Origin: Lumbricus terrestris
Taxonomy: Eukaryota > Annelida > Clitellata > Crassiclitellata > Lumbricidae
NCBI GenBank assembly: GCA_949752735.1
Contig: OX457052.1
Location: 13,305,037-13,369,036 of the forward strand
Reading direction: 5' to 3'
Length of the DNA: 64,000 nt
How positions within the stretch are numbered: the stretch's first letter is position 1; each line of letters begins with the position of its first letter. The notes beneath the pieces were generated by a model, which was not told where the DNA came from, made no database searches, and saw nothing but the letters and a program-made list of their open reading frames with translations. The translations under genes and the position numbers were made by a program. Positions 8,069-47,600 of the stretch are shown here, piece after piece.

Positions 8069-11000
8069 CTAAAACGTGCAACAAATCAATTGGCTATTCA
8101 ACTTCCTGACCTCTATTATAGACCTTTTGTCATAAGTCAACCATTGTTTTGTTTATTTAATTTCTATTGCGAAAATTCACATTACATCACTCCATGGAAG
8201 TGCGCCAGAGGTGTTTGTTGCTCTTGCATAAACCATATTCAATACAATTAAAACAGAACATTCATTAATTAATTTCCATACATGGTCCTGATTTCAAGAA
8301 GAGACATCAGAGGTACATGTAGGCTTCTAAACACAAGTGGGCCTAGAGGCAAAGGGCTGCCAACTCGAATTTATTTCGAGAATTCTTGGCGAATCTACAT
8401 AGCGCCTCGTCTGAAGACCGACTCAGAGGTGAAGAATAATAATTATTGATACTAACTAGCATGATTAGTCGGTTAGCCTATAGCCTAATATACCTACTCC
8501 TGAAAAATTACGCATAGCGAAACATTTGACTAAGTATAACAGCAGAGCCATGGCTAATCAAAATTCACACGCCCTGTGAGGTGCCACTCAGCATAATTTA
8601 TACATCAGTTGACTGACGATAAACAAGTTCAGAGTTCAAGTGTGGCGCCGCACACCGAAATGAGCATTAAGTCGGAGATTACACATCAGAGATATTAGAG
8701 AAATAGTATTTTTTAATTTTTTTATTTTTTGTGAAAAAAGTTAATAAAAAAAATTTTTAACAACAAATTTTGAATTTTTTTTCAAAAGACAAGTAGCCAA
8801 GCTATTTTAATGCTCTTGCTTTGCAAAATTTTTTTAAAATTAATTTAATTTAATTAATCAATTAATTTAATTAAATCACTTTTTTCCTTGTATCTTCGGC
8901 TAGGATTAAGCTAGAGCAATAATTTTTGTGTCAGTTTGTCGCCTGAGACAAGGCCTTTGAAATGATGCATCAAACGCAATATGTTGCAAAATCACCTTAA
9001 TGCTCATTTCGGTGTGCGGCGCCACAAGTATTCTTTTCGTCCTCAATGAACCCCCCCCACTTCTATCAGCTGCTCTGGCTCCTTACTCTAGTCTCTATGG
9101 CAACCGGACTCGGTCCGGGTCCTCCACTGGACATTGATCTTTTCGACAACCCCTCTGATACATATATATATTCGTTTTATTGAGAATCTCGCTGACACAC
9201 CGCAGCCAGTTACCAATAATAAATGATTAAGACAAATCATGACAATTCAAACAACTGGGTGGAAGTCAGAAAGAGGGGCAATGGTCGAGTATCTGTAAAG
9301 TACTCGAGAAATGTAATTTCTTTCGTCCTTAATTGGTAGTTCAAAACTGTGAGGACGAGGACGCAGCGCTCGTGAATAATCTGGTGCCCAGCGCACAGCT
9401 TCAGAGCAGCGCTTTAGACATGTGCATTCGGAGCTTGCGATTATGCCGCCGGTGACTTTTACAGCTCTCAGTGAGTAGCGGTTTTGTAGTTCTCAGAGCA
9501 TTGCTCTGCTTAGTAAGCGTTTAAGTAAGACATTTGATCCAGTAACATGGGACGCCGTGTTGTAATGGGTATGTTTGTGTTCTTGCAGCCGTAGGGCTGC
9601 AGGTTCGAATCCACTTCAAGCCACCGCGTAGGGACCTGAAGCAATTTCTTCACTCGCAATAATTGCGAGTGAAGAACTTGCGGTAATTATTGCTCGGGCA
9701 CTTCCTCGTGAAACTCCGATGCAGTGTCGGCGCTGTAGTCGGGAGTGCTTCTCAGTAGTGAGCTTGAAGGGGAGCAGAAAAAGGTCATCAATTATTCTGG
9801 CAGGGAAAATTGGTTTATTTTCCAGACATTTCGACCAAACGACTAAAAAAAGGTCATCAGATTTTTTCTGGCAAAGATCACCGAAAATTTTGACCCCCCC
9901 TTTGAAAATTTCTGTATCGGACCATGATAGGCCTATACGTTGACACGAACCTTTACACTGAAAATCGTCCACTAGCTCAAAGCCAGGATCGCATGAACAT
10001 GAATAATTTCCGATGTCATTGATGCAAACTTGATTGCAATTGGAAACTGCTCTCTGACATTCATCGATATCTGAAATTAAACGTCTAGAGATTCACTAGG
10101 CCCATTCAGGTTACTCAAAAGATGTATAGAAATTTTCACATAGATCCACTTGGTCTGAATCCGAAAGTTCTATTAGATGCTTGCTTCATCGATAAACGCC
10201 TAATCTAAGATATCGGTCCTCCGATTCAGTGCTGTTGATCATGCCTGTTAAAACCAGTCGAAAACACTTAAGTTTGATATGCAATATTTGCAACACATAG
10301 GCTAAAACTGACTACAAACTAATTACGAGCGCAATAAATTAATAGCATAAGGTATAGGAACCGCTATAACAAGTGCACATACAAACAAACAAACAATAAT
10401 AAACATAAAAACAAATAAACAATTTTTCTGAATTTAATACCCACCCTCGCACTGAAACTCGTTTATTAGCTCAAAGCCTTGGTTACATGAACATGAATAA
10501 TTTCCGATATTGTTTTCACATATCTGATTGCATTGGAATATCTCCATCCCGCATTCATCTTCATCTGTTGAACAGAGATCAACAAAAACATAATTTTTAA
10601 AGAAATAAATAGGCCTACTACTACCATGCAATACAAAGAAACTATAAAATTACTCCATAAAAAGGCAGATTTATAAATAAGTTATGTCTAGTAACCAGAG
10701 TGGAGAGATGCGTCGCCCGATGAGCGCCGCACATGCACAGAAAAGACTAAGGTCTATTAATCGCAATAACCTTCACATAGAAATTCGTTCACTAGCTGAA
10801 ATGCAGTTCACGTCGCAAATAAAGGTCTAATGTAGTTGCCGATGTTATTTTGGTTCACGCGATGGCGACATTTATTTATATCTACCACAAATAAACAAAC
10901 CATAGCTGTGTGTGGCACGGTGACCAATTGCGGTCGGCGGTTATTACGCTGTGTGTATAGGAACCGCGAGAAAGTCCTTTGCGAGCAGTTGTACATTTCA

Positions 11001-14000
11001 GTTTCTTTCTATGCTGTCTCATTTAGTTATCACTGTCATCTAGGCCTACACATCTTTTAACTTACCGTCGCATGTTCGTTCATCTCCGGTCAAACTATAT
11101 CCTGGCAGGCAGTCGCACGTGTAGTTTCCAATGCCATTTATACACAGTTGAGAACAATTGGATGTCCCAGATGCACACTCATCGATATCTAGAAATCGCA
11201 AAGAAGCTATCTGTTACAGTTTTATTTTATCCTTTCCTTATTTTCTATGCAGAGTTAGTCGCATTCAGATTTTCCAGAAAGGCATTGAACGATATGAACA
11301 AATGGCGAAAACAATTTACACGATTGCACGTCTGTTCAGCATGCTTTGTAGCTCTCTTTCTATCCTACAAGATCATTGAGTTGTCTACACATCTTTCAAC
11401 TTACCGTTGCATGTTCCTTTATCTTCCGATAAACTATATCCTGCAAGACAATCGCACGTGCAGCTTCCAATGCCATTTTTACACAACTGAGTGCAATTGG
11501 ATGTTCCGGATGCACATTCATCGATATCTACAAAATAAAATAGCAAAGAAGCAATCTGCTTATTTTGTCTATTTTCTCATTTTATGTGCAGAAAACATTC
11601 AGATCATGTTTCAGACATCGTAATCGTAAACACGGAACTTCTACAGCGCCTACAAAACGGAAGTCATCCAGCTTATTGCATGAGCTCAGTCAAGACAAAA
11701 TCGACAGGCAGGGGTCACGAACCGGAGAATAGCTAATCAGACGGCTAGGGTGGATGGTGTTTAAAGTTGAAACGAGTGATAGGTAGGGGAAACGACGGAT
11801 CATGGCAGGGTAGGATCAGGATAAAAATGCATTGAACGATATCAGCAAATAACGAAAACATGTCTGTTCAACTTGCTTAGTCATTCTCTGAATTTCATGC
11901 CGACTCATTGAGTTAGGACTATTTATACATGTTTCAACTTACCGTTGCATGATCGTTCATCTTCCGCCAGACTATATCCTCGCTGGCAGTCGCACGTATA
12001 GTTTCCAAGAACGTTTACACACAGTTGAGAACAACCGGAAGTAGTTGGCTAACTGTCTTAATGAGCTCAGTGACGTCACTGAGTGAGCTCATTAAGACAG
12101 TTAGCCTGGGTGAGCTCATTAGTATGCAGAGCTCAGACAATGACAAGCTCCGCCCCTAATTAATATTCATGCTGTGACGTCATTTGCTAGAACTTTCTGG
12201 ACCATTCTAGAAGGTCTATTGTTCCTTTGTCCGGCTCTTTGTCCGTCTGCGTGTTTGTCTAACTGTCTGTGTGCATACCTAGGTGATTAAGAGATCGTTT
12301 ATGATGCGCGCGCGCGTAATGGCTTTATTATACATGATAAGAATCTCTACGGCGCGCCAGCGCAGACGAATTTCAAAATAAAAAACTCAGAAAACTCCAA
12401 GATTTTCCACTTAGACAAAGCACTAAATTTTCACTTTTATCTTTTAATGCAGTGAATGTACTATAGTCAATGCTTTAATTTAATAATTAAATGCGTGCAA
12501 GGAGGATGCTTGTCAGATGGCGCCACTTATTGTAATTACTTTATTTAAAAGATGATACTTGTATCTTTAAGAATTATTTGTTATGCAATCTTTGCGAGTG
12601 ATACACGGTTTATGCAAATATGTGTCCGTCAAATGTTGAATGTGAAATGGATGTATTTGGCAACTACAAGTGCGAATGCGACATTTGTGGAATCGATGAG
12701 CGAACGGAGGATGAGAAAGCTACGAAATATCGCCTCATGAGATTGAAAGCGGAGAATGAAAAACTCAAAAAAGCAGCTACTTGCGCGGTATGTAAAAATA
12801 AGCAAGTGGAAACACTGCTACTTCCATGCAGACACGTAAATATGTGCGACCCATGTACAGACGAAGCTACAGAATGTCCTCAATGCAAAGAACGCATATT
12901 GGGCTTTGTCAGAATATATATTGTATAAAAGTTTCTTACATCATTTCAAGAACTCACTTTTCGTTATGGATCCAACTTGGCAACACCCGTTTTCGGCTAT
13001 AGTGAGCGGACCTTCTGGATGTGGGAAAACACAATTCACGCTACGATTTATAGATCATTTACATTATATGGTCAAACCTCAGATAGAAAAAATTATCTGG
13101 TGTTACGGAATATACCAAGAGATTTTCGACAAATATTCGCAAATTCAATTTCACGAAGGATTACCCGACTTGAATATTTTCGATGGTAAGCAGAAAACGC
13201 TTCTGATATTGGACGACCTTATGAGCGAGACTGATGACCGCGTTACCAAATTATTTACAAAGATCAGCCACCACAGGAACGTTTCGATACTGTACCTGAC
13301 GCAGAATCTATTCTACAGCAGCAAACATACGAGAACCATCAGTTTGAATGCACATTACTTTGTTCTTTTCAAAAACGTGAGAGATTCGACGCAGATAGCA
13401 AACCTGGCAAGGCAGATGTTCCCCGGCAAGTCGAATTTCATGATAGAGGCATTCGGAGATGCGACCATGGCGCCTTTCGGATATCTGTTGGTTGATCTCA
13501 AACCGGAGACGGATGAACGTTGCAGATTAAGAACGAACATTTTCCCTGGCGAGACGCATTTTGTATACGTAAGAAAGTGAATATAAGGTCGTGTAATCGC
13601 TCGAACGTTCATTCGTTGAAAATGACGGCTCCACTGAAGGAGAAATTTGAGAAACTGAGATTGCTTAAAGAGTCGTCACCCAAAGTGAGGAAACGTATTT
13701 TGAAAGATTGCAACACCTCTCTACTTTACTGTCTCTGTGAGTGTGCACTCAACGTTTTAAAAGGAGTTGTTCCTTTGGAAAAAGCTCAGAAGAAGAGACT
13801 TGGTCGTTTCAAACACAAGTTAAGAAAATTGGCTTCCAAGAAAACTCGTGTAAAGATTAAGAAACGATTAGTACAGACTGGTGGTTTCATAGGTGCATTA
13901 CTTACCCCCGTGCTTTCCTTTCTGGGTACCTTGCTAAGTAATAAACTGTAGCATGGAACATACAAAGAAGATGGTCTTGGTTGAACCCAGACAGATTGAA

Positions 14001-17000
14001 AAATGGAAGGAAACCATGTTGGACAAGACTTTGTCCAAATTGGATACGCAGATGTACGACATTCTGCATCGCGATATTGCCGATGACGATAAAGCTAAAC
14101 TCTATTCCAACAGTCTGAGTCGCTATCTGAACATTGATAAACCTACTGTACTTACCAAATTCGAAAAGAAGGAAGATGAAGTGTCAACTGTTGAGAAAGC
14201 ACAACCGGTCAAAACCAATAGCATAGAAGCTCAAGTCTTGGAAACCGTGCCAAAGAAATGGAAAACGCAGGCTGCTAGACTTTTAACTCACATGAAGAGC
14301 AATCCTGACGTTTCGTGGTCTACTAAAGGTGAACTTGTGCTGAAGAATGCGACTGTTCCGAAGACGCACGTGGTGGACTTGGTAAACGATCTGCTGAGAA
14401 AACGTACAACAGCTTCACCGCCTACCGGATGGATGCAACTGGCCGACGCCTTGAAAGATTCCAACATTCCTCGCGAGTTGATCGGCAATCAAGATCGTTG
14501 GAAATATATTAACGGCCCGCTCGATGATAGTCAGGCATTTACACCGAAAAGTATACACGGAGAACAACATCAACAACACCATCTGAATGCGAGTTGGTTA
14601 CCCTACTGATGGAGTCTTACTTCGATCCTAAACAGCCGGCTAGCTTCGGCGGCGTATCTTCCTTTCAAAGACATAATTATTGACGATAAATTTAAAACTA
14701 AGGATGTTAAACATTGGCTTTCGAAACAGGACGCTTACACGTTACATAAACCTGTCAGGTTGAACTTTAGGCGTAGACAGACTTTTACAGTAGGAATTGA
14801 CGATCTATGGCAAGCTGACTTGGCCGATCTTTCTGCATTGTCGAAACATAATGATAAAAATAAATATATTTTAACGTGTATAGACGTCTTTTCTAAATAT
14901 GCTTGGGCAGTTCCGCTCAAGTCAAAGTCGGGATCAGATTTGACTGCAGCCTTTTCGGCCATTTTGGTAGATAGACAGCCCGCTCATTTACAGACCGACA
15001 AGGGAACAGAGTTCCTTAATAGAAGTTTTCAATCCATGCTGCGCAAGAATTCCATTCGCTTTTACACATCTGAAAATAGCGATATAAAGGCCTCTGTAGT
15101 AGAAAGATTCAATCGCACGCTTAAGACGAAAATGTGGAAGTACTTTACGTATAAGAATACGTATCGATATGTTGATGTTTTGCAAGATCTTATGCAATCG
15201 TACAACAATACATATCATAGAAGTATAGACATGATACCTAGTCAAGTGACAAAGGAAGACGAAAATAGTATTAGAAGTCGTTTGTACGGTCAAAAGAAAA
15301 GTCCAGCAAAGTGGAAATATGCAGTAGGTGATAAAGTGAGAATTGCAAAGGCTAGAATCGCATTCAAAAAGGGCTACCTTCCCTCTTGGTCCGAAGAGAT
15401 TTTTAAGATCATAGCTCGCATACCTTCCGATCCAGTAACTTACGAATTAGCCGATTTAAAAGACGAGACGCTAAAGGGTAAATTCTACGAAGTCGAATTG
15501 CAAAGAATTTTGAAAGATGACGTGTACGGTATCGAAAAGGTCTTAAAAACGCGTAAGCGCCGTGGAAAGACCGAATATTATGTCAAGTGGAAAGGTTACG
15601 ACGACAAATTTAACTCTTGGACTCAGGATATATTCGATGTCTAGCACTGACAATGCGCATTCTGTAATAGTCTACATGCGAGTATGGCTCACTTTTATCT
15701 AGCGCTACCAAGCAACAGCTCCATGAAGTATTATCCAAGCAATACTGCGGCACACTTTACAACAAAATTGGAAAACGGCATTTCGTTATCGGGCGATTGG
15801 GAAGTTGGCTTGATTGAAATACATTATCCGCACACGTGGAACAATATAACATCCGACGATTGTGAATTTATTTATTGGCAAGAATCGAAAAAGTATTCTG
15901 ACGGTTTGCATTGGCCAGGCGATCAAAAGACAATACAATTACCTACTGGGTATTACGAAAATATGCATGATATTGTATATGCTGTAAATACGAATATACA
16001 GGAGTTTGCGGTCGAACATAAACTTGATAAATATTCACATTTTAAATATGACACAATAACGAAAACACTCAAAGGTGAAATAAATCTAGGAGCGGGAGTA
16101 AGATTCTCCACAGCATTATGCTTTATTTTGGGCATAGACGAAAGACAGAATCCTATTTATAACCTCAATTTTGGTAAATATGACGCTGAAGAGAATGAAG
16201 AATATTATAAAGAGCATTACGAAGAGTTTAATAAAGTATGGGATGAGGTACCCGATGTGGAATGGGAATCTGAGTATATTGGAGATATAAATCCAGCATT
16301 CTCAAGCATACACGTTTATTGCAACATTCTGTCACATGTACCTGTTGGCGATACGACAACCCCATTACTTCGAATAGTTCACATTGAAGGCAAAAATGGC
16401 GACAATGTGCATATCATGTACGAGAATGCAGTCTACGTACCCCTTCAGCAGAAAAGCTTCGATTCGATAGAAATAGATATTAGGGGCGACACTGGGAATG
16501 CAATACCATTCGAGTATGGGAAGTCGTTCGTATTACTTCATTTCAGACAGTGCAAGAAACCGCATCTCATTCAATAAAATATGGCTCAATTTTACCTTAC
16601 GCTCCCCAGCAATAGTTCCATGCTGTTTTATCCAAACAATACCATAACACATTTTACCACGAGATTGGAAAATCCAATATCCCTAACCGGTGACTGGGAA
16701 GTCGGGCTAGTTGAATTACAATACCCTCATAGTTGGAGCAATTTAGAAAGAAATGAAGGTAGAATCTCGTATATGCACGTCAAGTTTTCTGAAACGGGTG
16801 ACATACTACCAGGATCGCTGCATAGAACTACACGACTGCCAACCGGATACTATGAAACACCACAAGATCTTATCGATTCCATAAACAAATTTATAAGTCT
16901 TGTTGTGGATGAAATGGAATTGACTACATTCCCAAAGTTCAAATACGATCCTATATCGAAGCGACTCAAGGGTGATATAAACAAAGGTGCAAATATTCAG

Positions 17001-20000
17001 TTTTCACCAACCATATGTTCAATGCTGGGCGTTGATGCACGTCAAAATCCAATTCTCAATTACGATGATGAGGATGACTACATTGTTGATTTCGTGGGCG
17101 ACAATGCTTGCGATGTAAATCGCGGGTTTTGCTCCCTGTACGTATATTGCAATGTGTTGGAACAAGTCCCTGTGGGAGATACGAAGGCACCACTGCTCAG
17201 AATTGTAAACGTGTCAGGGAAAAGTGGCGATAGCGTGCGTGCTACTTACGAAAAGCCCGTTTACATTCCGTTGCAACAGAAGACTTTCGACTCCATCGAG
17301 GTGGATATAAGGGGCGACACTGGAAGTCCTATCCCATTCGAATACGGGAAGGCAATTGTGACACTACACTTTAGACATCGTAAGATACCTTATCTTTTGC
17401 AATGAAAAAACAATTTTGCTGCGATGCAAGTCGTTTGGCATACGAGGACTACTATGTACAACAGAGTGGCAATGGCATGCCAGTTTTTCAAGGTGCGCGC
17501 ATGCAACGTGGGCATGGCGTGGGCAGCTTTCTTGGCGGTCTGTTTAGAAGTGCCTGGCCGCTTATTCAGACTGGCGCTAAGGCAATTGGCAAACAGGTTT
17601 TGAGAACCGGTCTGCAGATTGCCAACGACGTCGCAGACGGTGGTCAGTTGATAGACTCGGCCAAACGTCGCGTTCCAGAAGGTATAAAAGCGTTTACATC
17701 TTCCAAAGATGACAATGTGCAAAGCGGTGGCGGCAGGAAGAGACGTAAAAGATCGTTGAAAAGAATTAACAAGAGAACCAAGGAAGATATTTTCGGCAAA
17801 GTTTGAAAAATGGCATTCGTTCATCCACAATCTTGCGAATGTACAAAGAGCGAATTGGATCTGTTTACCGTACCTCCCACACAGACCAGTATCGAAACCG
17901 GGTCGTACGTAGAGTATAATCCAATAGCCACCATTTCGCAAGGTACGCCGATCGAATTTAGCATTACAGGGGCCGGCCAAGATTATTTGGACTTGTCGAA
18001 TACACAACTATACGTCAGGGCAGCAATAATAAGAGCGAATAACGATCCGACTGATGCTGGCGACCATGTTGGACCTATCAACCTATTCCTACACAGTCTG
18101 TTTTCGGAAGTCGACATCACTTTAAATGACACGCTCGTTACTTCTTCTAACAACACGTATGCGTATCGTAGCTATATGGAGACCATACTTAGTTACGGTG
18201 ATGCAGCCAAAGCTTCGCAACTTACCTCTGCTCTCTTTTACAAGGATACAGCCACACACTTGGAAGACGCCAATCCGCACGACGACGATATAGCGAATGT
18301 CGGTTTTAAGAAACGCAGTGCGTTGACCGACGAAGGACGCGTCGTTGATATGATAGGAGGTATTCACAGCGACCTATTCTTCCAAGAAAGATTTCTCCCA
18401 AACGATATTAATATAAAAATCCGACTCGTAAGAAACAAGGATCCATTCTGCTTGATGTCAGCGACGCAGGGTGCCGCATATAAAGTAAAAATCTTGGAAT
18501 GCAAGTTGTACGTTAGAAAAGTAAAACTAAGTCCGTCGGTGTTTCTAGCGCATGCCAAAGCGCTTGAGGTTGGCAATTTGAAGTTTCCCATTCGAAGAGC
18601 CATTTGCAAGACTTTCACGGTTCCGGCAGGAAACTTGGATGCGTCACAGGAGAGTCTCTTCTCCGGTCAGATTCCTACACGTATCGTTATCGGTTGCGTG
18701 GACAACGACGCGTTTAACGGAGTCTATACGAAGAATCCATTCAACTTCAAACATATGAATCTGACCCAACTAAAAGTATACTTGGACGGTCAACAGCAAA
18801 CCATCAAACCTTTGGAAACGAATTTCGCAAACAATCAGTTTGTGAATGCTTACGCTTCGCTGTTTACTGGTACTGGAAAGTGGATGCGCGACGAAGGAAA
18901 TCAGATAGCGAGAGAGGACTTTGCCGGTGGATACGCTCTTTACGCATTCGATTTAACACCGGACCTGGCAGAAGGTGGTCACTTTAACCTCATCAAACCG
19001 GGAAATATTCGTGTTGATATGAAGTTCGGCCAGGCTTTGGCTAGAACCATAAACGTCATCGCATTCGCAGAATTTGAAAATATTCTGGAAATCGACCGCT
19101 CCAGAAACGTGATTTTCGACTATACCAACTGAAATGGACGGTGACACGATATATTCGATACTACGTGCAGATGCAAAGTGTGATCCCATGTTTCTGGGTG
19201 TGTTTCCATGCGACCGCTTACCTTCAACGATAAACAGAAATCGCCCCTCCATTCTCGTGTGTAATACAGATACGTACGGCAATCCAGGGAAACATTGGAT
19301 CGTTATTTACATAGAGAATTCTGACTATGGGGAATACTTTGACTCGCTGGGCGCACCACCCGAAGCACCGTTCAGAACATTTTTACATAGACATTGTGCA
19401 CGCTGGATTTTTACTGATCGGCAATTGCAAAGCTTAGTTAGCAAATTTTGTGGACATTACTGTATTTTATATTCGTTGCATAGAGCTAGAGGTAGAAATA
19501 TCAATGCTGTAGCGAACATGTTAACTTTTGATACTGGATTGAACGATTATTTAGTTTATAATTTCGTTTCCAAAGCATGAGAATAAAGTTTCTGGAACTT
19601 GAAAAGTGTTGTAGTTATTTGTATGCGTGAATCTGAATGCTAGAGATCGAAAACATACCAAAGTTCTGCTATGATCATTTAATAATGCACACACAACAGA
19701 TGGCGTCAACGTTGTAACAAACTTCATCCTTGTAAGCATTAAAAGATAAAATTTATAAAATCTTGGTTTTTTTCTGAGTGGAAAATTATAGATGTAAAAT
19801 TTTGGGTTTTCTAGGTTTTTTTTTTCTAGGTGGAAAATCTGGGTTTTTTTTCTAGGTGGAAAATCTTGGGTTTTTCTGGGTTTTTTTTTTTTTTTTTTTC
19901 TAGGTGGAAAACCTGACTTTTTCTAGGTGGAAAATCTGGCTTTTTTCTAACTTTTTAATTCGCTGCTTCTAGCATATTTCTTTTTCTCGAAGATGGCCCG

Positions 20001-20845
20001 CGGCACAGATTCTTATCGCAGCAAATAAAGTCATTCATAGCCCTTTCTTCATTAACGTATCGCGTCGGTCGAGTGACCATGCTGAATAATACAATGGTTT
20101 CTTCCACCATAAGAAACACTGATAGTGCCATTCACAAATCTGCATTAGGAGAGGGTATCGCTTTTCGCTTTTTGTAGAATGGACTGGAAAGAAAAAGTAT
20201 AGTTTAAAATGCATGCACGTTGCGATTTAAAATGTATGTATGAACATCGGTTTGACACTTAATTATGACATACACATGTGGAGCAAATACGCAGAGGGCT
20301 TAAAGAGGACCGGTGACCTTTGTATAAGACGCGCGTGATCGGTCCATTGTTAACACAATAGGTGTATGCAGAGTCGGTCAGAAGCGCCGGAGGGCACAGA
20401 GGTCGGCTTTGTCAGACTCGTGTTCCGTCACGCTGCGTGATTTCTGGTGTCGCTGTCCCGATGCTCTGTACAAACTCAGATATTCGCCGAGTATGCGCTC
20501 GCACCCTTACTCTAAATTTCTATATGTTCTAAATTTTACCCTTATATCTCCAATACGCTTATTAGTTGCGCCTTGCGTAGAAAGATGTGTCTGTCGCACT
20601 GCCAGTCTAGGTCCTATATAATCGAGGAGGGATCCGTAAATGTTTCCTCTTTTTAAGATTCAGCGCTGAATAAATTTTAAGAAACAACGCTGCTGATTGC
20701 ATTGATTTATTGCTTATGACAAGTGTGAATAAAAGATTATGTAGCGCATATAGAATGAACTATGTGAGTGAAGCTGGCCAATTCTTAGCTCTTTTTAAAA
20801 TTAATGCGAGACGAGGACGGTTGGTTTGATAGCGCTCTCACACGC

Positions 20846-20877
<32 letters not shown>

Positions 20878-23800
20878 GAGAGTCACATACACAAAGGACA
20901 ATAGTCAATATGCAAATAGGCAAAGCGTGATAGTATCTAGGTATGCACACAGACAGGCACAAACATAGCCAAAGACAGCCAGGCGTACAGACAGACATAC
21001 AAACAGTTACTGGAATTTTCGAGAACGTTCACGTAGATGACGTCACAACATGAATATTAATTAGGTATGTCATTAAAGGCTGCTTATAGCCAGTTAGGTA
21101 TACACACAGACAGGCACAAACATGCACACAGACAGACAGACAAACACGCAGACGGACAAAGAGCCGGACAAAGGAACAATAGACCTTCTAGAATGGTCCA
21201 GAAAGTTCTAGCAAATGACGCCACAGCATGAATATTAATTAGGGGCGGAGCTTGTCATTGTCTGAGCTCTGCATACTAATGAGCTCACCCAGGCTAACTG
21301 TCTTAATGAGCTCACTCAGTGACGTCACTGAGCTCATTAAGACAGTTAGCCAACTACTACCGGATGTTCCAGATGTGCATTCATCGATATCTATATATCG
21401 CAAAGAAGCAACACATGTTCGTTCAGCTTTAAGAAAATCTTTTTCTTATTTCTATACAGAGATGGTATCATTCAAATTTTTCAGGGTGGGGGGTCCCGTA
21501 GCTCAGTGGTGAGAGCGCTGGTCGTTAAACTGAGAGTCATCCGCGCGACCCGGGTTCAAGCCTCGCTCAGGGCATTAATTTATTAAAGTTTCTGTTAGCT
21601 GCCGCTGGCGCTTTGCTGTAGTGTTGCTTGACTCGGGTTCTGCTAAAAATAAAGATAGCCCTCCCACTTCTGGCTTGGCCGATCAGGAGTGATCCAGTAC
21701 TTAGGCCATTAGTGTTAAGACGGTCTTAACACTAATGGCCTAAGTACTGAACCCACTGCTGTAAAGTCGACCTGCGTATCGTGCTATAGTGGGCCGTATT
21801 TCGTATAACATGTAGGCCTACTTGTAATCATTCTGCGGTCTGTCAGATTGAAGCATTAAACGAAGATATTATTATTATCAACAATTAGCAAAAACAATTC
21901 GCATAATTACTTGCACGTCTGTTCACCTTGATTTCTCATTCTCTGTCTTGCAAAGTTGGGTCGTTGAGATGTCTACACATAATTGAACTAACCGTTGCAT
22001 GTTCGTTCATTCTTCGCCAAACTATATCCTGGAAGACAGTCGCACGTGTAGTTTCCAATGCCATTTGTGCACAGTTGGGAACAATTATATGTTCCAGATG
22101 TACACTCGTCGATATCTAGGAATAGCCAAAGAGCAATCTGCCAAGATTATTTTGTCTATTTTCTCATTAAATCTCCGTACGGAGTGAGAGAGCATTCAGA
22201 TGTTCCCGAAATCGGCATCGTTAACTCGGAAATTCTACAGCGCCCACAAAAGCAAAGTCGCGGGTGCCAGCTTACTTGCAGGCGCTCAGTCAAAACAAAG
22301 TCGATAGGGAGATGGTGAAGATAAGGAGAGGCAGGCAGGCAATTAGTCAGACGGCCAAGGTGGATCAGGTTTAGAGTTGAAACGCCGTGTGAGCTGAAAG
22401 ATGTGGAGAGATTAGGATAGGACAGGATAAGGTTAAAATAATTAATTGATCGAAATGAAAAAAATTGAAACGAAAATAACTTGTAAGTCCACGACAACAC
22501 GTCTTTTCAGTCTGTTTTGTCATCCTCTCTCATTGTTGTCTCATTGAGTTGACTACACATCATTCAACTAAGAATGCTCTTCCGCTAATCTGTGTCTTTG
22601 CAGGCAAACCCAGGTGCAATTTCCATGACCAATAATGCACAATCGAATACATTCAAATTCTTGTGTCGTGAAAGGGTCAAAGACATTAAAAATCGCGAAG
22701 AGCATAGTTTGATCAGCTGCATGTCTTTTTAGCTAATTTTGATCATCTGTTTTTTTTCATGCTGTTTCTTTGAGTTTTCAACACATCTTTCATCAATTTA
22801 CCGTTGCATGATCGTTCATCTTCCGTCAAATAATATCCTGGCAGGCAGTCGCACGTGTAGTTTCCAATGCCATTTTTGCACAGATGAGAACAATTGGATG
22901 TTCCAACTGTACACTCGTCGATATCTATAAATCGTAAAGAAGCAACACTTGTCTGTTCAGTTTAGTTAGGTTTTTGGTTATTGTTATGCATGGTCGAAGA
23001 CATTCAAATATTCCACAAAGACATTCGACGATATAAACGAATAGCCAAAGTAATACATTGGCCTACTGGGTGGCTGTTCAACACATCAGTGTTCTTTTGT
23101 TTCTTCATAATGAAGTTTCATTTAGTTAATATCTACACATCTTTTAGCCTACCATCGCATGATTGTTGTCTACACATCATTCAACTTACCGTTGCATGTT
23201 CGTTCATCTTCCGATAAACTATGTCCTGGAAGACAGTCGCACGTATAGTTTCCAAGGGCGTTTATACACAGTTGAGAACAACCGGATGTTCCAGATGTAC
23301 ATTCGTCGATATCTAGAAATCACAAAAAGCTCTCGAGCTTATTTTGTCTATTTGCTAATTTGTATATAGTACCTTAATTTAAGAATGCTCCGCTAATCTG
23401 TATCTTTGCAGGCAAACCTAGGTGCAATTTCCATGACCAATAATGCACAATTGAATACATTCATATTCTTTAGTCGGGAAAGGGTTAAAGACATTGAAAA
23501 AATCGCGAAGACCATAGTAATATCAGCTGCATTCCTTTTTTTAAAGCTAATATTGATCATCTGTTTTTTTCTATGCTGTTTCTTTGAGTTTTCAACGCAT
23601 CTTTCATCAACTTACCGTTGCATGATCGTTGATCTTCCGTCAAATAATATCCTGGCAGGCAGTCGCACGTGTAGTTTCCGAGGTCATTTATACACAGTTG
23701 AGAACAATCGGACGTTCCAGATGTGCATTCATCAGTATCTAGAAATCACAAAGACGCAATCAGATCTCTTCAGCTTTGCCTGTCTATTTGGTGATTTCTA

Positions 23801-26800
23801 TACTATAGTACCTTAATTTAAGAATGCTCTTCCGCTAATCTGTATCTTTGCAGGCAAACCCAGGTGCAATTTTCATGACCAATAATGCACAATCGAATAC
23901 ATTCATATTCTTGTGTCGTGAAAGGTCAAAGACATTAAAAATTGCGAAGAGCATAGTTTGATCAGCTGCATGTCTTTTTAGCTAATTTTGATCATCTGTT
24001 TTTTTCCATGCTGTTTCTTTGAGTTTTCAACACATCTTTCATCAATTTACCGTTGCATGATCGTTCATCTTCCGTCAAATAATATCCTGGCAGGCAGTCG
24101 CACGTGTAGTTTCCAATGCCATTTTTGCACAGCTGAGAACAATTGGATGTTCCAACTGTACACTCGTCGATATCTAAAAATCGTAAAGAAGCAACACTTG
24201 TCTGTTCAGTTTAGTTAGGGTTAGGCTTTTGGTTATTGCTATGCATGGTCGAAGATATTCAAATATTCCACAAAGACATTCGACGATATAAACGAATAGC
24301 CAAAGTAATACATTAGCCTACTGGGTGGCTGTTCAACACATCAGTGTTCTTTTGTTTCTTCATAATGAAGTTTCATTTAGTTAATATCTACACATCTTTT
24401 AGCCTACCATCGCATGATTGTTCATCTTCCGCCAAACGATATCCTGGATAGCAGTCACACGTATAGTTTCCAAAGCCATTTACGCACAGTTGAGAACAAT
24501 TGGATGTCCCAGATGCACACTCATCGATATCTAGAAATTGCAAGGAAGCCATCTGTTCAGTTTTATTTTATCCTATTGCTTATTTTCTGTGCAGTGCTAG
24601 TCGCATTCAGATGTTCCAGAAATGCATCGAACGATATCAACAAATGGCGAAAGCAATTTACGCGATTGCACGTCTGTTCAGCTTGCTTTGTACATGTATA
24701 GTTCTCTTTCTATGCTACAAGATCATTGAGTTGTCTACACATCATTCAACTTACCGTTGCATGTTCGTTCATCTTCCGATAAACTATGTCCTGGAAGACA
24801 GTCGCACGTATAGTTTCCAAGGGCGTTTATACACAGTTGAGAACAACCGGATGTTCCAGATGTGCATTCGTCGATATCTAGAAATCACAAAAAGCTCTCG
24901 AGCTTATTTTGTCTATTTGCTAATTTCTATATAGTACCTTAATTTAAGAATGCTCTTCCGCTAATCTGTATTTTTGCAGGCAAACCCAGGTGCAATTTCC
25001 ATGACCAATAATGCACAATTGAATACATTCATATTCTTTTGTCGGGAAAGGGTTAAAGACATTGAAAAAATCGCGAAGACCATAGTAATATCAGCTGCAT
25101 TCCTTTTTTAAAGCTAATATTGATCATCTTTTTTTTCTATGCTGTTTGTTTGAGTTTTCAACGCATCTCTCATCAACTTACCGTTGCATGATCGTTGATC
25201 TTCCGTCAAATAATATCCTGGCAGGCAGTCGCACGTGTAGTTTCCGAGGTCATTTTTACACAGTTGAGAACAACCGGACGTTCCAGATGTGCATTCATCA
25301 GTATCTAGAAATCACAAAGACGCAATCAGATCTCTTCAGCTTTGCCTGTCTATTTGGTGATTTCTATATTATAGTACCTTAATTTAAGAATGCTCTTCCG
25401 CTAATCTGTATCTTTGCAGGCAAACCCAGGTGCAATTTTCATGACCAATAATGCACAATCGAATACATTCATATTCTTGTGTCGTGAAAGGTCAAAGACA
25501 TTAAAATTGCGAAGAGCATAGTTTGATCAGCTGCATGTCTTTTTAGCTAATTTTGATCATCTGTTTTTTTCCATGCTGTTTCCTTGAGTTTTCAAAACAT
25601 CTTTCATCAATTTACCGTTGCATGATCGTTCATCTTCCGTCAAATAATATCCTGGCAGGCAGTCGCACGTGTAGTTTCCAATGCCATTTTTGCACAGCTG
25701 AGAACAATTGGATGTTCCAGCTGTACACTCGTCGACATCTAAAAATCGTAAAGAAGCAACACTTGTCTGTTCAGTTTAGTTAGGGTTAGGCTTTTGGTTA
25801 TTGCTATGCATGGTCGAAGATATTCAAATATTCCACAAAGACATTCGACGATATAAACGAATAGCCAAAGTAATACATTAGCCTACTGGGTGGCTGTCCA
25901 ACACATCAGTGTTCTTTTGTTTCTTCATAATGAAGTTTCATTTAGTTAATATCTACACATCTTTTAGCCTACCATCGCATGATTGTTGTCTACACATCAT
26001 TCAACTTACCGTTGCATGTTCGTTCATCTTCCGATAAACTATGTCCTGGAAGACAGTCGCACGTATAGTTTCCAAGGGCGTTTATACACAGTTGAGAACA
26101 ACCGGATGTTCCAGATGTGCATTCGTCGATATCTAGAAATCACAAAAAGCTCTCGAGCTTATTTTGTCTATTTGCTAATTTCTATATAGTACCTTAATTT
26201 AAGAATGCTCTTCCGCTAATCTGTATCTTTGCAGGCAATCCTAGGTGCAATTTCCATGACCAATAATGCACAATTGAATACATTCATATTCTTTAGTCGG
26301 GAAAGGGTTAAAGACATTGAAAAAATCGCGAAGACCATAGTAATATCAGCTGCATTCCTTTTTTTAAGCTAATATTGATCATCTGTTTTTTTCTATGCTG
26401 TTTCTTTGAGTTTTCAACGCATCTTTCATCAACTTACCGTTGCATGATCGTTGATCTTCCGTCAAATAATATCCTGGCAGGCAGTCGCACGTGTAGTTTC
26501 CGAGGTCATTTATACACAGTTGAGAACAACCGGACGTTCCAGATGTGCATTCGTCGATATCTAGAAATCACAAAAAGCTCTCGAGCTTATTTTGTCTATT
26601 TGCTAATTTCTATATAGTACCTTAATTTAAGAATGCTCTTCCGCTAATCTGTATCTTTGCAGGCAAACCTAGGTGCAATTTCCATGACCAATAATGCACA
26701 ATTGAATACATTCATATTCTTTAGTCGGGAAAGGGTTAAAGACATTGAAAAAATCGCGAAGACCATAGTAATATCAGCTGCATGTCTTTTTAGCTAATAT

Positions 26801-29800
26801 TGTTCATCTGTTTTTTTCCATGCTGTTTATTTGAGTTTTCAAAACATCTTTCATCAATTTACCGTTGCATGATCGTTCATCTTCCGTCAAATAATATCCT
26901 GGCAGGCAGTCGCACGTGTAGTTTCCAATGCCATTTTTGCACAGCTGAGAACAATTGGATGTTCCAACTGTACACTCGTCGATATCTAAAAATCGTAAAG
27001 AAGCAACACTTGTCTGTTCAGTTTAGTTAGGGTTAGGCTTTTGGTTATTGCTATGCATGGTCGAAGATATTCAAATATTCCACAAAGACATTCGACGATA
27101 TAAACGAATAGCCAAAGTAATACATTAGCCTACTGGGTGGCTGTTCAACACATCAGTGTTCTTTTGTTTCTTCATAATGAAGTTTCATTTAGTTAATATC
27201 TACACATCTTTTAGCCTACCATCGCATGATTGTTCATCTTCCGCCAAACGATATCCTGGATGGCAGTCACACGTATAGTTTCCAAAGCCATTTACGCACA
27301 GTTGAGAACAATTGGATGTCCCAGATGCACACTCATCGATATCTAGAAATTGCAAGGAAGCCATCTGTTCAGTTTTATTTTATCCTATTGCTTATTTTCT
27401 GTGCAGTGCTAGTCGCATTCAGATGTTCCAGAAATGCATCGAACGATATCAACAAATGGCGAAAGCAATTTACGCGATTGCACGTCTGTTCAGCTTGCTT
27501 TGTACATGTATAGTTCTCTTTCTATGCTACAAGATCATTGAGTTGTCTACACATCATTCAACTTACCGTTGCATGTTCGTTCATCTTCCGATAAACTATG
27601 TCCTGGAAGACAATCGCACGTATAGTTTCCAAGGGCGTTTATACACAGTTGAGAACAACCGGATGTTCCAGATGTGCATTCGTCGATATCTAGAAATCAC
27701 AAAAAGCTCTCGAGCTTATTTTGTCTATTTGCTAATTTCTATATAGTACCTTAATTTAAGAATGCTCTTCCGCTAATCTGTATCTTTGCAGGCAAACCTA
27801 GGTGCAATTTCCATGACCAATAATGCACAATTGAATACATTCATACTCTTTAGTCGGGAAAGGGTTAAAGACATTGAAAAAATCGCGAAGACCATAGTAA
27901 TATCAGCTGCATTCCTTTTTTTAAGCTAATATTGATCATCTGTTTTTTTCTATGCTGTTTCTTTGAGTTTTCAACGCATCTTTCATCAACTTACCGTTGC
28001 ATGATCGTTGATCTTCCGTCAAATAATATCCTGGCAGGCAGTCGCACGTGTAGTTTCCGAGGTCATTTATACACAGTTGAGAACAACCGGACGTTCCAGA
28101 TGTGCATTCATCAGTATCTAGAAATCACAAAGACGCAATCAGATCTCTTCAGCATTGCCTGTCTATTTGGTGATTTCTATATTATAGTACCTTAATTTAA
28201 GAATGCTCTTCCGCTAATCTGTATCTTTGCAGGCAAACCCAGGTGCAATTTCCATGACCAATAATGCACAATTGAATACATTCATATTCTTTAGTCGGGA
28301 AAGGGTTAAAGACATTGAAAAAATCGCGAAGACCATAGTAATATCAGCTGCATTCCTTTTTTTAAGCTAATATTGATCATCTGTTTTTTTCTATGCTGTT
28401 TCTTTGAGTTTTCAACGCATCTTTCATCAATTTACCGTTGCATGATCGTTCATCTTCCGTCAAATAATATCCTGGCAGGCAGTCGCACGTGTAGTTTCCA
28501 ATGCCATTTTTGCACAGCTGAGAACAATTGGATGTTCCAACTGTACACTCGTCGATATCTAAAAATCGTAAAGAAGCAACACTTGTCTGTTCAGTTTAGT
28601 TAGGGTTAGGCTTTTGGTTATTGCTATGCATGGTCGAAGATATTCAAATATTCCACAAAGACATTCGACGATATAAACGAATAGCCAAAGTAATACATTA
28701 GCCTACTGGGTGGCTGTTCAACACATCAGAGTTCTATTGTTTCTTCATAATGATGTTTCATTTAGTTAATATCTACACATCTTTTAGCCTACCATCGCAT
28801 GATTGTTCATCTTCCGCCAAACGATATCCTGGATGGCAGTCGCACGTATAGTTTCCAAAGCCATTTACGCACAGTTGAGAACAATTGGATGTGCCAGATG
28901 CACACTCATCGATATCTAGAAATTGCAAGGAAGCCATCTGTTCAGTTTTATTTTATTATATTGCTTATTTTCTGTGCAGAGTTAGTCGCATTCAGATGTT
29001 CCAGAAATGCATCGAACGATATCAACAAATGGCGAAAGCAATTTACGCGATTGCACGTCTGTTCAGCTTGCTTTGTACATGTATAGTTCTCTTTCTATGC
29101 TACAAGATCATTGAGTTGTCTACACATCATTCAACTTACCGTTGCATGTTCGTTCATCTTCCGATAAACTATGTCCTGGAAGACAGTCGCACGTATAGTT
29201 TCCAAGGGCGTTTATACACAGTTGAGAACAACCGGATGTTCCAGATGTGCATTCGTCGATATCTAGAAATCACAAAAAGCTGTTGAGCTTATTTTGTCTA
29301 TTTGCCAATTTCCATATAGTACCTTAATTTAAGAATGCTCTTCCGCTAATCTGTATCTTTGCAGGCAAACCCAGGTGCAATTTCCATGACCAATAATGCA
29401 CAATTGAATACATTCATATTCTTTAGTCGGGAAAGGGTTAAAGACATTGAAAAAATCGCGAAGACCATAGTAATATCAGCTGCATTCCTTTTTTTAAAGC
29501 TAATATTGATCATCTGTTTTTTTCTATGCTGTTTCTTTGAGTTTTCAACGCATCTTTCATCAACTTACCGTTGCATGATCGTTGATCTTCCGTCAAATAA
29601 TATCCTGGCAGGCAGTCGCACGTGTAGTTTCCGAGGTCATTTATACACAGTTGAGAACAATCGGACGTTCCAGATGTGCATTCATCAGTATCTAGAAATC
29701 GCAAAGACGCAATCAGATCTCTTCAGCTTTGCCTGTCTATTTGGTGATTTCTATACTATAGTACCTTAATTTAAGAATGCTCTTCCGCTAATCTGTATCT

Positions 29801-32800
29801 TTGCAGGCAAACCCAGGTGCAATTTTCATGACCAATAATGCACAATCGAATACATTCATATTCTTGTGTCGTGAAAGGTCAAAGACATTAAAAATTGCGA
29901 AGAGCATAGTTTGATCAGCTGCATGTCTTTTTAGCTAATTTTGATCATCTGTTTTTTTCCATGCTGTTTCTTTGAGTTTTCAACACATCTTTCATCAATT
30001 TACCGTTGCATGATCGTTCATCTTCCGTCAAATAATATCCTGGCAGGCAGTCGCACGTGTAGTTTCCAATGCCATTTTTGCACAGCTGAGAACAATTGGA
30101 TGTTCCAACTGTACACTCGTCGATATCTAAAATCGTAAAGAAGCAACACTTGTCTGTTCAGTTTAGTTAGGGTTAGGCTTTTGGTTATTGCTATGCATGG
30201 TCGAAGATATTCAAATATTCCACAAAGACATTCGACGATATAAACGAATAGCCAAAGTAATACATTAGCCTACTGGGTGGCTGTTCAACACATCAGTGTT
30301 CTTTTGTTTCTTCATAATGAAGTTTCATTTAGTTAATATCTACACATCTTTTAGCCTACCATCGCATGATTGTTCATCTTCCGCCAAACGATATCCTGGA
30401 TGGCAGTCACACGTATAGTTTCCAAAGCCATTTACGCACAGTTGAGAACAATTGGATGTCCCAGATGCACACTCATCGATATCTAGAAATTGCAAGGAAG
30501 CCATCTGTTCAGTTTTATTTTATCCTATTGCTTATTTTCTGTGCAGTGCTAGTCGCATTCAGATGTTCCAGAAATGCATCGAACGATATCAACAAATGGC
30601 GAAAGCAACTTACGCGACTGCACGTCTGTTCAGCTTGCTTTGTACATGTATAGTTCTCTTTCTATGCTACAAGATCATTGAGTTGTCTACACATCATTCA
30701 ACTTACCGTTGCATGTTCGTTCATCTTCCGATAAACTATGTCCTGGAAGACAGTCGCACGTATAGTTTCCAAGGGCGTTTATACACAGTTGAGAACAACC
30801 GGACGTTCCAGATGTGCATTCATCAGTATCTAGAAATCACAAAGACGCAATCAGATCTCTTCAGCTTTGCCTGTCTATTTGGTGATTTCTATATAGTATC
30901 TTAATTTAGGAATGCTCTCCCGCTAATCTGTGTCTTTGCAGGCAAACCCAGGTGCAATTTCCAAGCCCAATAATGCACAATCGAATACATTCATATTCTT
31001 GTGTCGTGAAAGGTCAAAGACATTGAAAAAATCGCGAAGACCATAGTAATATCAGCTGCATTCCTTTTTTTAAGCTAATATTGATCATCTGTTTTTTTCT
31101 ATGCTGTTTCTTTGAGTTTTCAACGCATCTTTCATCAACTTACCGTTGCATGATCGTTGATCTTCCGTCAAATAATATCCTGGCAGGCAGTCGCACGTGT
31201 AGTTTCCGAGGTCATTTATACACAGTTGAGAACAACCGGACGTTCTCAACTGTGTATGTGCATTCATCAGTATCTAGAAATCACAAAGACGCAATCAGAT
31301 CTCTCCAGCTTTGCCTGTCTATTTGGTGATTTCTATATAGTATCTTAATGTAGGAATGCTCTCTCGCTAATCTGTGTCTTTGCAGGCAAACCCAGGTGCA
31401 ATTTCCAAGACCAATAATGCACAATCGAATACATTCATATTCTTGTGTCGTGAAAGGGTCAAAGACATTAAAAATTGCGAAGACCATAGTTTGATCAGCT
31501 GCATGTCTTTTTAGCTAATTTTGATCATCTGTTTTTTCCATGCTGTTTCTTTGAGTTTTCAACACATCTTTCATCAATTTACCGTTGCATGATCGTTCAT
31601 CTTCCGTCAAATAATATCCTGGCAGGCAGTCGCACGTGTAGTTTCCAATGCCATTTTTGCACAGCTGAGAACAATTGGATGTTCCAGCTGTACACTCGTC
31701 GATATCTAAAAATCGTAAAGAAGCAACACTTGTCTGTTCAGTTTAGTTAGGCTTTTGGTTATTGCTATGCATGGTCGAAGATATTCAAATATTCCACAAA
31801 GACATTCGACGATATAAACGAATAGCCAAAGTAATACATTGGCCTACTGGGTGGCTGTTCAACACATCAGTGTTCTTTTGTTTCTTCATAATGAAGTTTC
31901 ATTTAGTTAATATCTACACATCTTTTAGCCTACCATCGCATGATTGTTCATCTTCCGCCAAACGATATCCTGGATGGCAGTCACACGTATAGTTTCCAAA
32001 GCCATTTACGCACAGTTGAGAACAATTGGATGTCCCAGATGCACACTCATCGATATCTAGAAATTGCAAGGAAGCCATCTGTTCAGTTTTATTTTATCCT
32101 TTCGCTTATTTTCTGTGCAGTGCTAGTCGCATTCAGATCTTCCAGAAATGCATCGAACGATATCAACAAATGGCGAAAGCATCTTACGCGATTGCACGTC
32201 TGTTCAGCTTGCTTTGTACATGCATTGTTCTCTTTCTATGTTACAAGATCTTTGAGTTGTCTACACATCATTCAACTTACCGTTGCATGATCGTTGATCT
32301 TCCGTCAAATAATATCCTGGCAGGCAGTCGCACGTGTAGTTTCCGAGGTCATTTATACACAGTTGAGAACAACCGGACGTTCCAGATGTGCATTCATCAG
32401 TATCTAGAAATCACAAAGACGCAATCAGATCTCTCCAGCTTTGCCTGTCTATTTGGTGATTTCTATATAGTAGGCCTATCTTAATTTAAGAATGCTCTTC
32501 CGCTAATCTATGTCTTTGCAGGCAAACCCAGGTGCAATTTTCAAGACCAATAATGCACAATTGAATACATTCATATTCTTGTGTCGTGAAAGGGTCAAAG
32601 ACATTAAAAATTGCGAAGACCATAGTTTGATCAGCTGCATGTCTTTTTAGCTAATTTTGATCATCTGTTTTTTCCATGCTGTTTCTTTGAGTTTTCAACA
32701 CATCTTTCATCAATTTACCGTTGCATGATCGTTCATCTTCCGTCAAATAATATCCTGGCAGGCAGTCGCACGTGTAGTTTCCAATGCCATTTTTGCACAG

Positions 32801-46336: not shown

Positions 46337-47600
46337 AGTCAAATAGTATAAACATGCCTCTATAAACATAGTGCAAAAGGAATCAGGAAAAAGCTAACAG
46401 CTTATAAAACCCTGACCCCTAGCTCCAAGACTATTTTTAGTGCAAGTCAGTATTAATACTTAACTAAAACTTAATTAATACTTAATTAATTAGAACATAA
46501 CTGAAAGTAATGGGGATAAACATACAATGCAATGCAATAATGATGATAATAATAATAATAAAATATGTAATATTAAATCATATTAATAAATGGTAATAAT
46601 ACTAAATAATAATAATAAATAATAGAAACAGCATATTATTGCAGCAGTAAATCGTCACAGTCTACAAAGAATTAGAGACTCGGAAACATCATAATAAACA
46701 GTCAGGATACTAACATACAGTGTCTAGATTGCTGCAAGATAAATGCAGGTATAAAGACCAAAGTTAATCAACATATGCAATAGTTTGAAAACAAAGTCTT
46801 TTTAACATTTTTCTTGAAGGCACATACACTATTTTTCCTCTTCACATCATCTGACAGAGAGTTCCATAAACGGGGACCTAGAATTCGGAAGCTATTAAAG
46901 CGACATGTGGTACGGGCAAAAGGAACAACATACCACGAGTATTAAACGAGTGAAATTGAGCCACTGTCATAAAATAATTTTTAAATATGGGGGTAAGAGA
47001 TTATTTCCAAATTTGTACATAAGGACGACAATAGACAAATAGTACAGGTCATAAACTTTGAGAATATTAAGTTTACTGAATAAAGGGTTGGAATGGGCTA
47101 AATAGGGAGAGTTAGAGATAATACGACACGCAGCTTTCTGAAGCTTTAGAATTCGGTCCAAGTTGCAGGATCTGTGCGGAGAAGCCCAAACAACACAACA
47201 GTAATTGATATATGGTTCTAGTAAGGTATGGTATAAAAGCTTCAATTTCTCAGTTGGTAGTACATGTCTGACCTTACGTAAAATGCCCACAACCTTGGAC
47301 ACTTTGTTGGTGACCATGTCCACATGTTTATTCCATTTAAGATTTTCAGTAATAAGAACACCAAGAAATTTAGTTTCACGTACACGAGGGAGATGCACAT
47401 CATTTACACATATGTCAAAATCTGAGTCAAGAGTCACCTTATTTCCAAATATCATATAGTTAGTCTTATTTAGGTTCAAAGATAATAAGTTGGCGGCAAA
47501 CCAGTGGCTTAATAGTTTTAAGTCATCATTCAGAGTTTTAGCTAGCATGAGAGGACAGTGCCCAGTGGCAAAAATATTCGTGTCGCCAGCAAACATGATT
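46275..47600 (-). mobile_element. LINE fragment: RT C-terminus and 3' end
   Basis: A 209-aa frame at 46967-47596 begins in the RT active-site motif, here FAGDT instead of FADDT (first catalytic Asp lost), and continues through LGVLITENLKWNKHV and ILKLQKAACRII. Further pieces (GPRLWNSLSDDVKR) lie at about 46790-46930. The 3' end runs into (CA)n at 46279-46335. 5'-truncated and inactive. Confidence 0.85.
46279..46335. repeat. (CA)n microsatellite at LINE 3' end
   Basis: About 28 CA units, directly next to the LINE tail. Confidence 0.95.

Follow-up and report, generated by a model that had tools for sequence, protein, structure and literature searches.

Polintons, also called Mavericks, typically have terminal inverted repeats (TIRs) and a 6-bp target-site duplication (TSD). 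Adintoviruses are defined by a family B DNA polymerase (PolB) with an OTU-like domain and a hexon in one genome, together with an rve integrase bearing a C-terminal chromodomain; adenovirus-type capsid genes also occur in genomes without PolB and integrase (PMC11071296). Nine Polintons without major capsid protein (MCP), protease or packaging ATPase have been described (PMC4028283). Here we analyse a 64,000-bp stretch of the Lumbricus terrestris genome (contig OX457052.1, positions 13,305,037 to 13,369,036; hereafter the window), which holds a Polinton-type element with capsid genes and no PolB at positions 12040-21358. We read it, with a probability of roughly 0.78, as one half of a bipartite Polinton, contributing the capsid and integration genes; the other half would be a separate element with the same ends that carries PolB and a PC4-like protein. 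The two kinds of element have complementary gene sets, shared ends, TSDs of the same length and high copy numbers, and samples of both are under purifying selection.

The window element is a complete insertion of 9,319 bp with exact termini, 5′ AGTAGTTGG at 12040 and 3′ CCAACTACT at 21358. It has the TIRs and 6-bp TSD of Polintons, and the exact duplication and the 221-bp TIRs with one mismatch that the initial annotation had reported are borne out by the following features:
12034-12039, no strand: left TSD ACCGGA, 6 bp, an exact copy of the right one; empty site visible
12040-12260, plus strand: left TIR, starting AGTAGTTGG, the same as the right TIR at 220 of 221 positions
21359-21364, no strand: right TSD ACCGGA, 6 bp, an exact copy of the left one

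The insertion target was a unit of a host tandem repeat family found in the same window, a long array of which lies at about 22000-37300. When the flanks are joined over one TSD, 43 of 45 BLAST matches within the window cross the junction (the 12 listed at 87-92% identity); because the joined flanks match the host repeat, the empty site is visible.

Protein-primed PolB, a Polinton trait, is not carried by the window element, as the initial annotation had claimed. Specifically, searches of the 64-kb window with ten proteins (a small transmembrane protein, the PolB of a related locus, L001, and eight representatives of the PolB class of this genome) gave a best match of E = 0.27, and the longest open reading frame (ORF) overlapping 11500-22000 is that of the 440-aa MCP. 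Pfam and PHROGs searches revealed no polymerase, primase or separate helicase families among the ten proteins of the element. A candidate PolB relic on the minus strand (20166-20038) scored E = 0.79 against the whole window, 0.007 against the 1.8-kb tail and 0.34 when the search was repeated with other settings; its alignment was poor, and it was not counted. The genes of the element all run rightward and are given below with homologues from copies L027 and L028 and from four related loci in metagenome-assembled genomes (MAGs; L001-L004):
12620-12928, plus strand: RING-finger protein, 102 aa; PF13920 6.8e-11; adjoins the ATPase gene also in L027 and L028
12963-13580, plus strand: packaging ATPase, A32/IVa2-like, 205 aa; Pox_A32 1.3e-5
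13622-13951, plus strand: small basic protein, 109 aa, presumably pX-like; collinear homologue in L001 and L002
13953-14609, plus strand: conserved protein, 218 aa; no Pfam match; same order in L001 and L002
14609-15644, plus strand: rve integrase with chromodomain; PF00665 1.6e-12, PF00385 9.8e-9; frame broken near the N-terminus
15684-16577, plus strand: putative minor capsid/penton-like paralogue A, 297 aa; 55% identical to paralogue B
16581-17405, plus strand: putative minor capsid/penton-like paralogue B, 274 aa; 55% identical to paralogue A
17402-17806, plus strand: protein of 134 aa that we take to be pVI-like; homologues lie between the minor capsid gene and the MCP gene in L001-L004
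17810-19132, plus strand: MCP, double jelly-roll (DJR)-like, 440 aa; PF21738 0.003, below the Pfam cut-off
19134-19580, plus strand: adenain-type maturation protease, 148 aa; PF00770 1.5e-4
19581-20305, plus strand: non-coding stretch containing T-rich repeats, specific to capsid elements; not covered by homology with the nine PolB right ends compared

The sub-threshold PF21738 match, taken with the L001-L004 homologues in Polinton gene order, suggests an MCP of the DJR type, for which 2,956 relatives were found among 8,000 scored candidates. Gene order likewise points to a putative penton role for paralogues A and B, and L001 and L003 have one gene where the window element has the tandem pair (15684-17405). 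In PHROGs, the integrase matches transposases (2.7e-11), and besides the integrase and the ATPase none of the proteins matched below 1e-3; searches with the small basic protein used 13610-13951. The genes had been described as intact in the initial annotation, which stands for the presence of the capsid, packaging ATPase and protease genes and fails for the integrase, whose first 22 residues (14609-14674) lie in a different frame from the remainder (14679-15641) by comparison with copy L028; the corresponding N-terminal stretch of copy L027 is in a single frame. The RING-finger protein, encoded upstream of the ATPase gene, is possibly an IAP-like host-control protein; its gene was not detected in L001-L004.

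PolB occurs on separate elements in the source assembly (1,056 Mb, or 1.06 Gb). Of six TIR-paired elements that lack a scored MCP and were read piecewise, two carry an open PolB frame of 1,109 aa, with motifs DFE, NSIYG and DTDS, and also encode a PC4-like protein (PF02229 4.7e-18). This PolB is 24-25% identical to the L001 PolB over two stretches (blastp 9e-20). Pfam does not name the 1,109-aa protein itself, PF03175 is matched by 13 of the 38 members of the PolB alignment (best 2.6e-22), and a PDB search with the PolB profile returned no polymerase. All 38 aligned sequences share Cys115 and His209, which lie in a region that we take to be the OTU-like domain. Judged by homology and from general knowledge of such polymerases, the separate PolB probably belongs to the protein-primed class.

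Genome-wide counts refer throughout to the best-scored candidates: 96 of 895 for MCP, 150 of 859 for ATPase, 40 of 354 for the window TIR, and 42 of 1,610, 33 of 1,362 and 69 of 1,405 in three PolB searches. The first PolB search yielded 25 full-length places at 93-100% identity, 3 partial ones and 14 at 71-73%, and 23 of the 25 full-length frames of this first lineage are free of stops. Nine of ten PolB copies tested (the piece of the tenth had no right end) have TIRs and perfect 6-bp TSDs on either side, as do two earlier ones, giving 11 elements; ten measure 9.6-13.2 kb, and one of 18.3 kb contains a nested long terminal repeat retroelement. Two pieces that cover 10.9 of the 11.35 kb of one PolB element, and ten 7-kb pieces from the right side of such elements, revealed no capsid, ATPase or integrase gene. 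The initial annotation had proposed a search for further copies and for a longer PolB-bearing relative with the same TIRs; PolB elements do share the ends, and neither a capsid nor an integrase gene was found in those read.

The capsid genes are also abundant, with MCP at no fewer than 96 places (85-100% identical; 88 of 96 without a stop) and all 150 scored ATPase places at 88% identity or more. Both ends and 6-bp TSDs were resolved for 13 capsid elements of 8.3-10.3 kb, namely the window element, one further single copy, nine of a 20-copy batch, one of 9,946 bp with a different end type and one of 8,319 bp from a lineage with 86% MCP identity; 11 of the 20 copies tested showed no TSD pair in the pieces read, and one of these was resolved later. 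At 8.3-10.3 kb, the resolved elements are too short to hold both a capsid module and PolB. Nor are the two gene sets neighbours: the 113 merged PolB places have none of the 96 MCP places within 30 kb (nearest 97.9 kb), and the same holds for the 150 ATPase places and 114 PolB starts. Random placement on 16 contigs of known size gives a mean of 0.65 MCP-PolB pairs within 30 kb, and zero is therefore what unlinked elements would give; the point is the absence of linkage. The same figures speak against a window copy reduced by simple internal deletion from copies that otherwise all carry PolB, which the initial annotation had named as grounds for abandoning its view. It had named a polymerase dropped in assembly as another, and repeats of this length can indeed collapse. 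However, 13 capsid and 11 PolB elements lie at different places with their TSDs intact, and the likelihood of such an artefact is negligible.

Capsid and PolB elements have ends in common. Among the window-TIR places, 16 adjoin MCP, 14 adjoin PolB and none adjoins both. Four palindromes account for eight of the remaining ten; the last two are a place next to ATPase and the distal end of the 18.3-kb PolB element. The extent of the homology is constant, with a left common region of ~0.33 kb and a right one of ~1.05 kb, the latter making up most of the long non-coding right tail:
12040-12370, plus strand: left region common to PolB elements; homology extends 325-333 bp inward in all 10 of 10 PolB copies, at 86-96% identity
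20306-21358, plus strand: right region common to PolB elements, including the right TIR; homology begins at 20306-20314 in 9 of 9 PolB copies with a right end

The two kinds have shared termini and gene sets that complement each other, as the parts of a bipartite virus do. The ends do not follow gene content, since TIR variants are mixed between the two kinds much as under shuffled labels. In the left-TIR tree (14 capsid elements, 12 PolB elements and 4 palindromes), the labels require 11 and 10 changes, where shuffling gives means of 10.0 and 9.6, and well-supported branches force at least four and at least five changes; in the right-end tree (8 capsid, 11 PolB), there are 7 changes against 6.3-6.4, at least five of them forced. 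The closest TIR belongs to the other kind in 13 of 26 elements, and the window TIR itself is 0.991 identical to that of a PolB element, versus at best 0.966 among the 13 other capsid elements compared. In two cases the left and right ends show the same pairing: capsid element C6_66308543 with PolB element C5_39288020, and C2_58654480 with C14_15710498, the second with weaker support on the left. Near-identical capsid proteins (MCP 99-100%) also occur in elements with three different TIR types, and ends therefore seem to have been exchanged between modules.

This mixing bears on the proposal of a PolB-less lineage copied by host enzymes only, for which the ends shared with PolB elements would be incidental. 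The window element itself has no polymerase, and its ATPase has two weak matches, one to PF00910 (2.2e-4, slightly over the cut-off) and one in PHROGs to a family of DnaC-like loaders (6.4e-5). However, the ATPase homologue of L001, which stands alongside PolB, gives the same PF00910 match (2.4e-4), and we therefore read these matches as probably reflecting a shared P-loop. Given that TIR variants are mixed between kinds and that pairs recur at left and right ends, replication by host enzymes only is very improbable. A simple deletion, assembly drop-out and host-only replication were rejected on linkage, size, TSD and TIR evidence.

A satellite with a helper is a closer competitor; here the capsid element would be a derived form that borrows PolB from an autonomous Polinton. 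Relatives in other animals do combine these capsid genes with PolB. Four loci came from a scan of prokaryote genome contigs; all lie in MAGs, two of them in one tubeworm-symbiont MAG, and we take them to be animal host DNA. L001 has the same gene order and an open 1,401-aa PolB frame (PF03175 2.8e-9) adjoining the ATPase gene, and L003 and L004 have PolB stretches after the protease gene on the opposite strand, decayed in L003. No PolB was found in the 21 kb of L002 (mussel-symbiont MAG, 1-21262), where frames are broken and ends were not found; it may be a decayed capsid element of another PolB-less lineage. PolB-bearing relatives therefore exist, and the PolB-less form may occur elsewhere. 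In the earthworm, however, the PolB elements read with matching ends yielded none of the capsid, ATPase or integrase genes, none of the scored MCP places is near any PolB place found, the best 33 of 1,362 PolB candidates include no L001-type PolB (identity of 36% or less over ~190 aa), and no autonomous helper with the window element's ends was found among the scored copies. We consider a satellite with its helper unlikely. Of the initial annotation's description, a satellite-like element that borrows its polymerase, the borrowing is still the best reading and "satellite" is too weak a word: neither kind looks autonomous, and a two-part genome therefore fits better.

Evolutionary constraint was evaluated in samples of both kinds. 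One pair of PolB copies gives nonsynonymous (dN) and synonymous (dS) divergences of 0.013 and 0.189 (dN/dS 0.07), and 91 pairs of 14 equal-length protease copies give means of 0.011 and 0.090 (dN/dS 0.12); dS is saturated for PenA/PenB. The protease set comprises 14 of 21 copies, six having been excluded for lacking the start MDG (five seem open from MDS, one is frame-shifted) and one for another length, and choosing open copies lowers dN/dS somewhat. These samples say that both kinds have been maintained as coding elements, and that not every copy is sound. They also weigh on the idea that a monopartite parent, since lost, left both kinds behind through internal deletion, and that they were amplified in trans as other non-autonomous transposons are. 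Carrying both modules, such a parent would measure ~18-20 kb, a normal size for a Polinton, and PolB of this class does occur together with other Polinton genes: the 17.4-kb viral contig L112 carries it (39% identity) with an rve integrase and an A32-type ATPase on one molecule, as well as a 477-aa protein that is presumably MCP-like and another that is presumably penton-like. PolB of this class can therefore sit in a monopartite genome. Viral contig L113 has a 38% identical PolB and no match to capsid-element genes, and no relative was confirmed among the viral contigs scanned with MCP, integrase and the L001 PolB. Yet deletion leftovers need no coding capacity, whereas 88 of 96 MCP and 23 of 25 PolB frames lack a stop and the sampled dN/dS values are low; the shared-end boundaries are moreover constant on left and right. 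Such leftovers are, in our estimation, quite unlikely.

Under the bipartite Polinton that we favour, trans-priming, trans-integration, packaging and mutual dependence are inferred. PolB made by one element would prime DNA synthesis on the TIRs of both kinds; the rve integrase from the capsid element would insert both, leaving 6-bp duplications; and the capsid proteins and ATPase, if particles form, would package both via the shared end regions. Palindromic elements with these ends were also found at four places in the source genome:
C17:7243341-7252589, C12:9985531-9995104, C10:20345080-20352650 and C18:6636608-6644578: TIR-paired palindromes of 7.6-9.6 kb, all with 6-bp TSDs

Their mirrored arms are 96-99.7% identical, each arm carrying 1.0-1.9 kb of the capsid element's right end and further DNA; in two of the four the arm reaches into the protease gene. 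ORFs of ~170 aa are common to the middle of two palindromes (L014:2-520 and L016:2-499), and that of L014 has no Pfam match. Fold-back products of linear, end-primed replication are known from adenovirus work, and the palindromes resemble such products, or integrated fold-back defective genomes, which suggests that DNA with these ends is mobilized in trans. Tentatively, and at odds slightly short of even, the whole may be a bipartite double-stranded DNA (dsDNA) virus of animals, with two separately integrating segments that have shared terminal origin and packaging regions, co-replicate, exchange ends, are packaged and yield palindromic defective genomes.

Several observations weigh against a bipartite Polinton. 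The integrase frame of the window copy is broken after ~22 residues, and at least 2 of 20 other capsid copies have a disrupted protease. For a second capsid end type, AGTAGTGGG, the best 40 of 1,146 TIR places comprise 14 beside MCP, 5 beside PolB, none beside both and 21 beside neither; three of these last neighbourhoods were sampled, one having PolB and two no recognized gene. A third capsid lineage (86% MCP) has 24 of 40 TIR places beside capsid genes, none beside a known PolB and 16 beside neither, and for a lineage with 93% MCP identity ends were not found in the pieces read. Because only the best candidates were scored, it is possible that an unscored PolB lies near some MCP whose ends are unresolved. 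Finally, two MCP relatives and two PolB relatives have longest contigs, from metagenomes, of matching length (32,451 bp for P0007/P0122; 32,263 bp for P0085/P0127), which may mark unsplit relatives in other species. On the other side, a PolB of another lineage (57% identical to the first PolB) adjoins a TIR that agrees with that of the second end type at 347 of 347 positions. Elsewhere in the window, ORFs at 46967-47605 and 9616-10092, which we take to be reverse-transcriptase-like and EGF-like, respectively, fit an animal genome.

If the bipartite reading is correct, a self-synthesizing transposon or virus has split into two interdependent parts within one genome, at high copy and under selection, and the origin of multipartite genomes becomes accessible through sequence data. 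The absence of PolB need then not mark a dead Polinton, and surveys based on PolB only would overlook the capsid half. To our knowledge, segmented dsDNA virus genomes are almost unknown except for the polydnaviruses of wasps, and no split Polinton was found in the literature searched, which comprised openly licensed papers, mostly at title or abstract level.

The earthworm elements can be compared with several described systems. Polydnaviruses are wasp-associated, with replication-deficient particles and a gene set unrelated to that of the window element. The likeness lies in segmented dsDNA with proviral loci (PMC1919376). Bidnaviruses are PolB-bearing DNA genomes, some of them segmented, but differ in having a parvovirus-type capsid, a superfamily 3 helicase and single-stranded DNA (PMC11071296, PMC4061559). 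Tlr1 and polinton-like viruses also combine a capsid module with the lack of an ordinary PolB, and Tlr1 has an rve integrase as well; they encode another replication protein, whereas none was recognized in the window element (PMC11071308, PMC4028283). The capsid-less Polintons resemble the earthworm PolB elements in having PolB without capsid genes (PMC4028283), but the earthworm PolB elements that were read also showed no integrase, and they have their ends in common with capsid elements. Against the adintovirus definition, the window element has the integrase with chromodomain (PF00385 9.8e-9), and PolB lies on other elements (PMC11071296). The four palindromes can be set beside defective genomes of adenoviruses with duplicated ends: the palindromes too carry two copies of one end, but they are integrated with 6-bp TSDs. 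With the animal type of Polinton/Maverick (Adintoviridae), the window element shares an rve integrase with chromodomain, the ATPase, an adenain-type protease, a probable DJR MCP and the gene order of L001, and it differs from this type in having its PolB on a separate element, each element being about half the size, in its RING gene and in its tandem minor-capsid paralogues.

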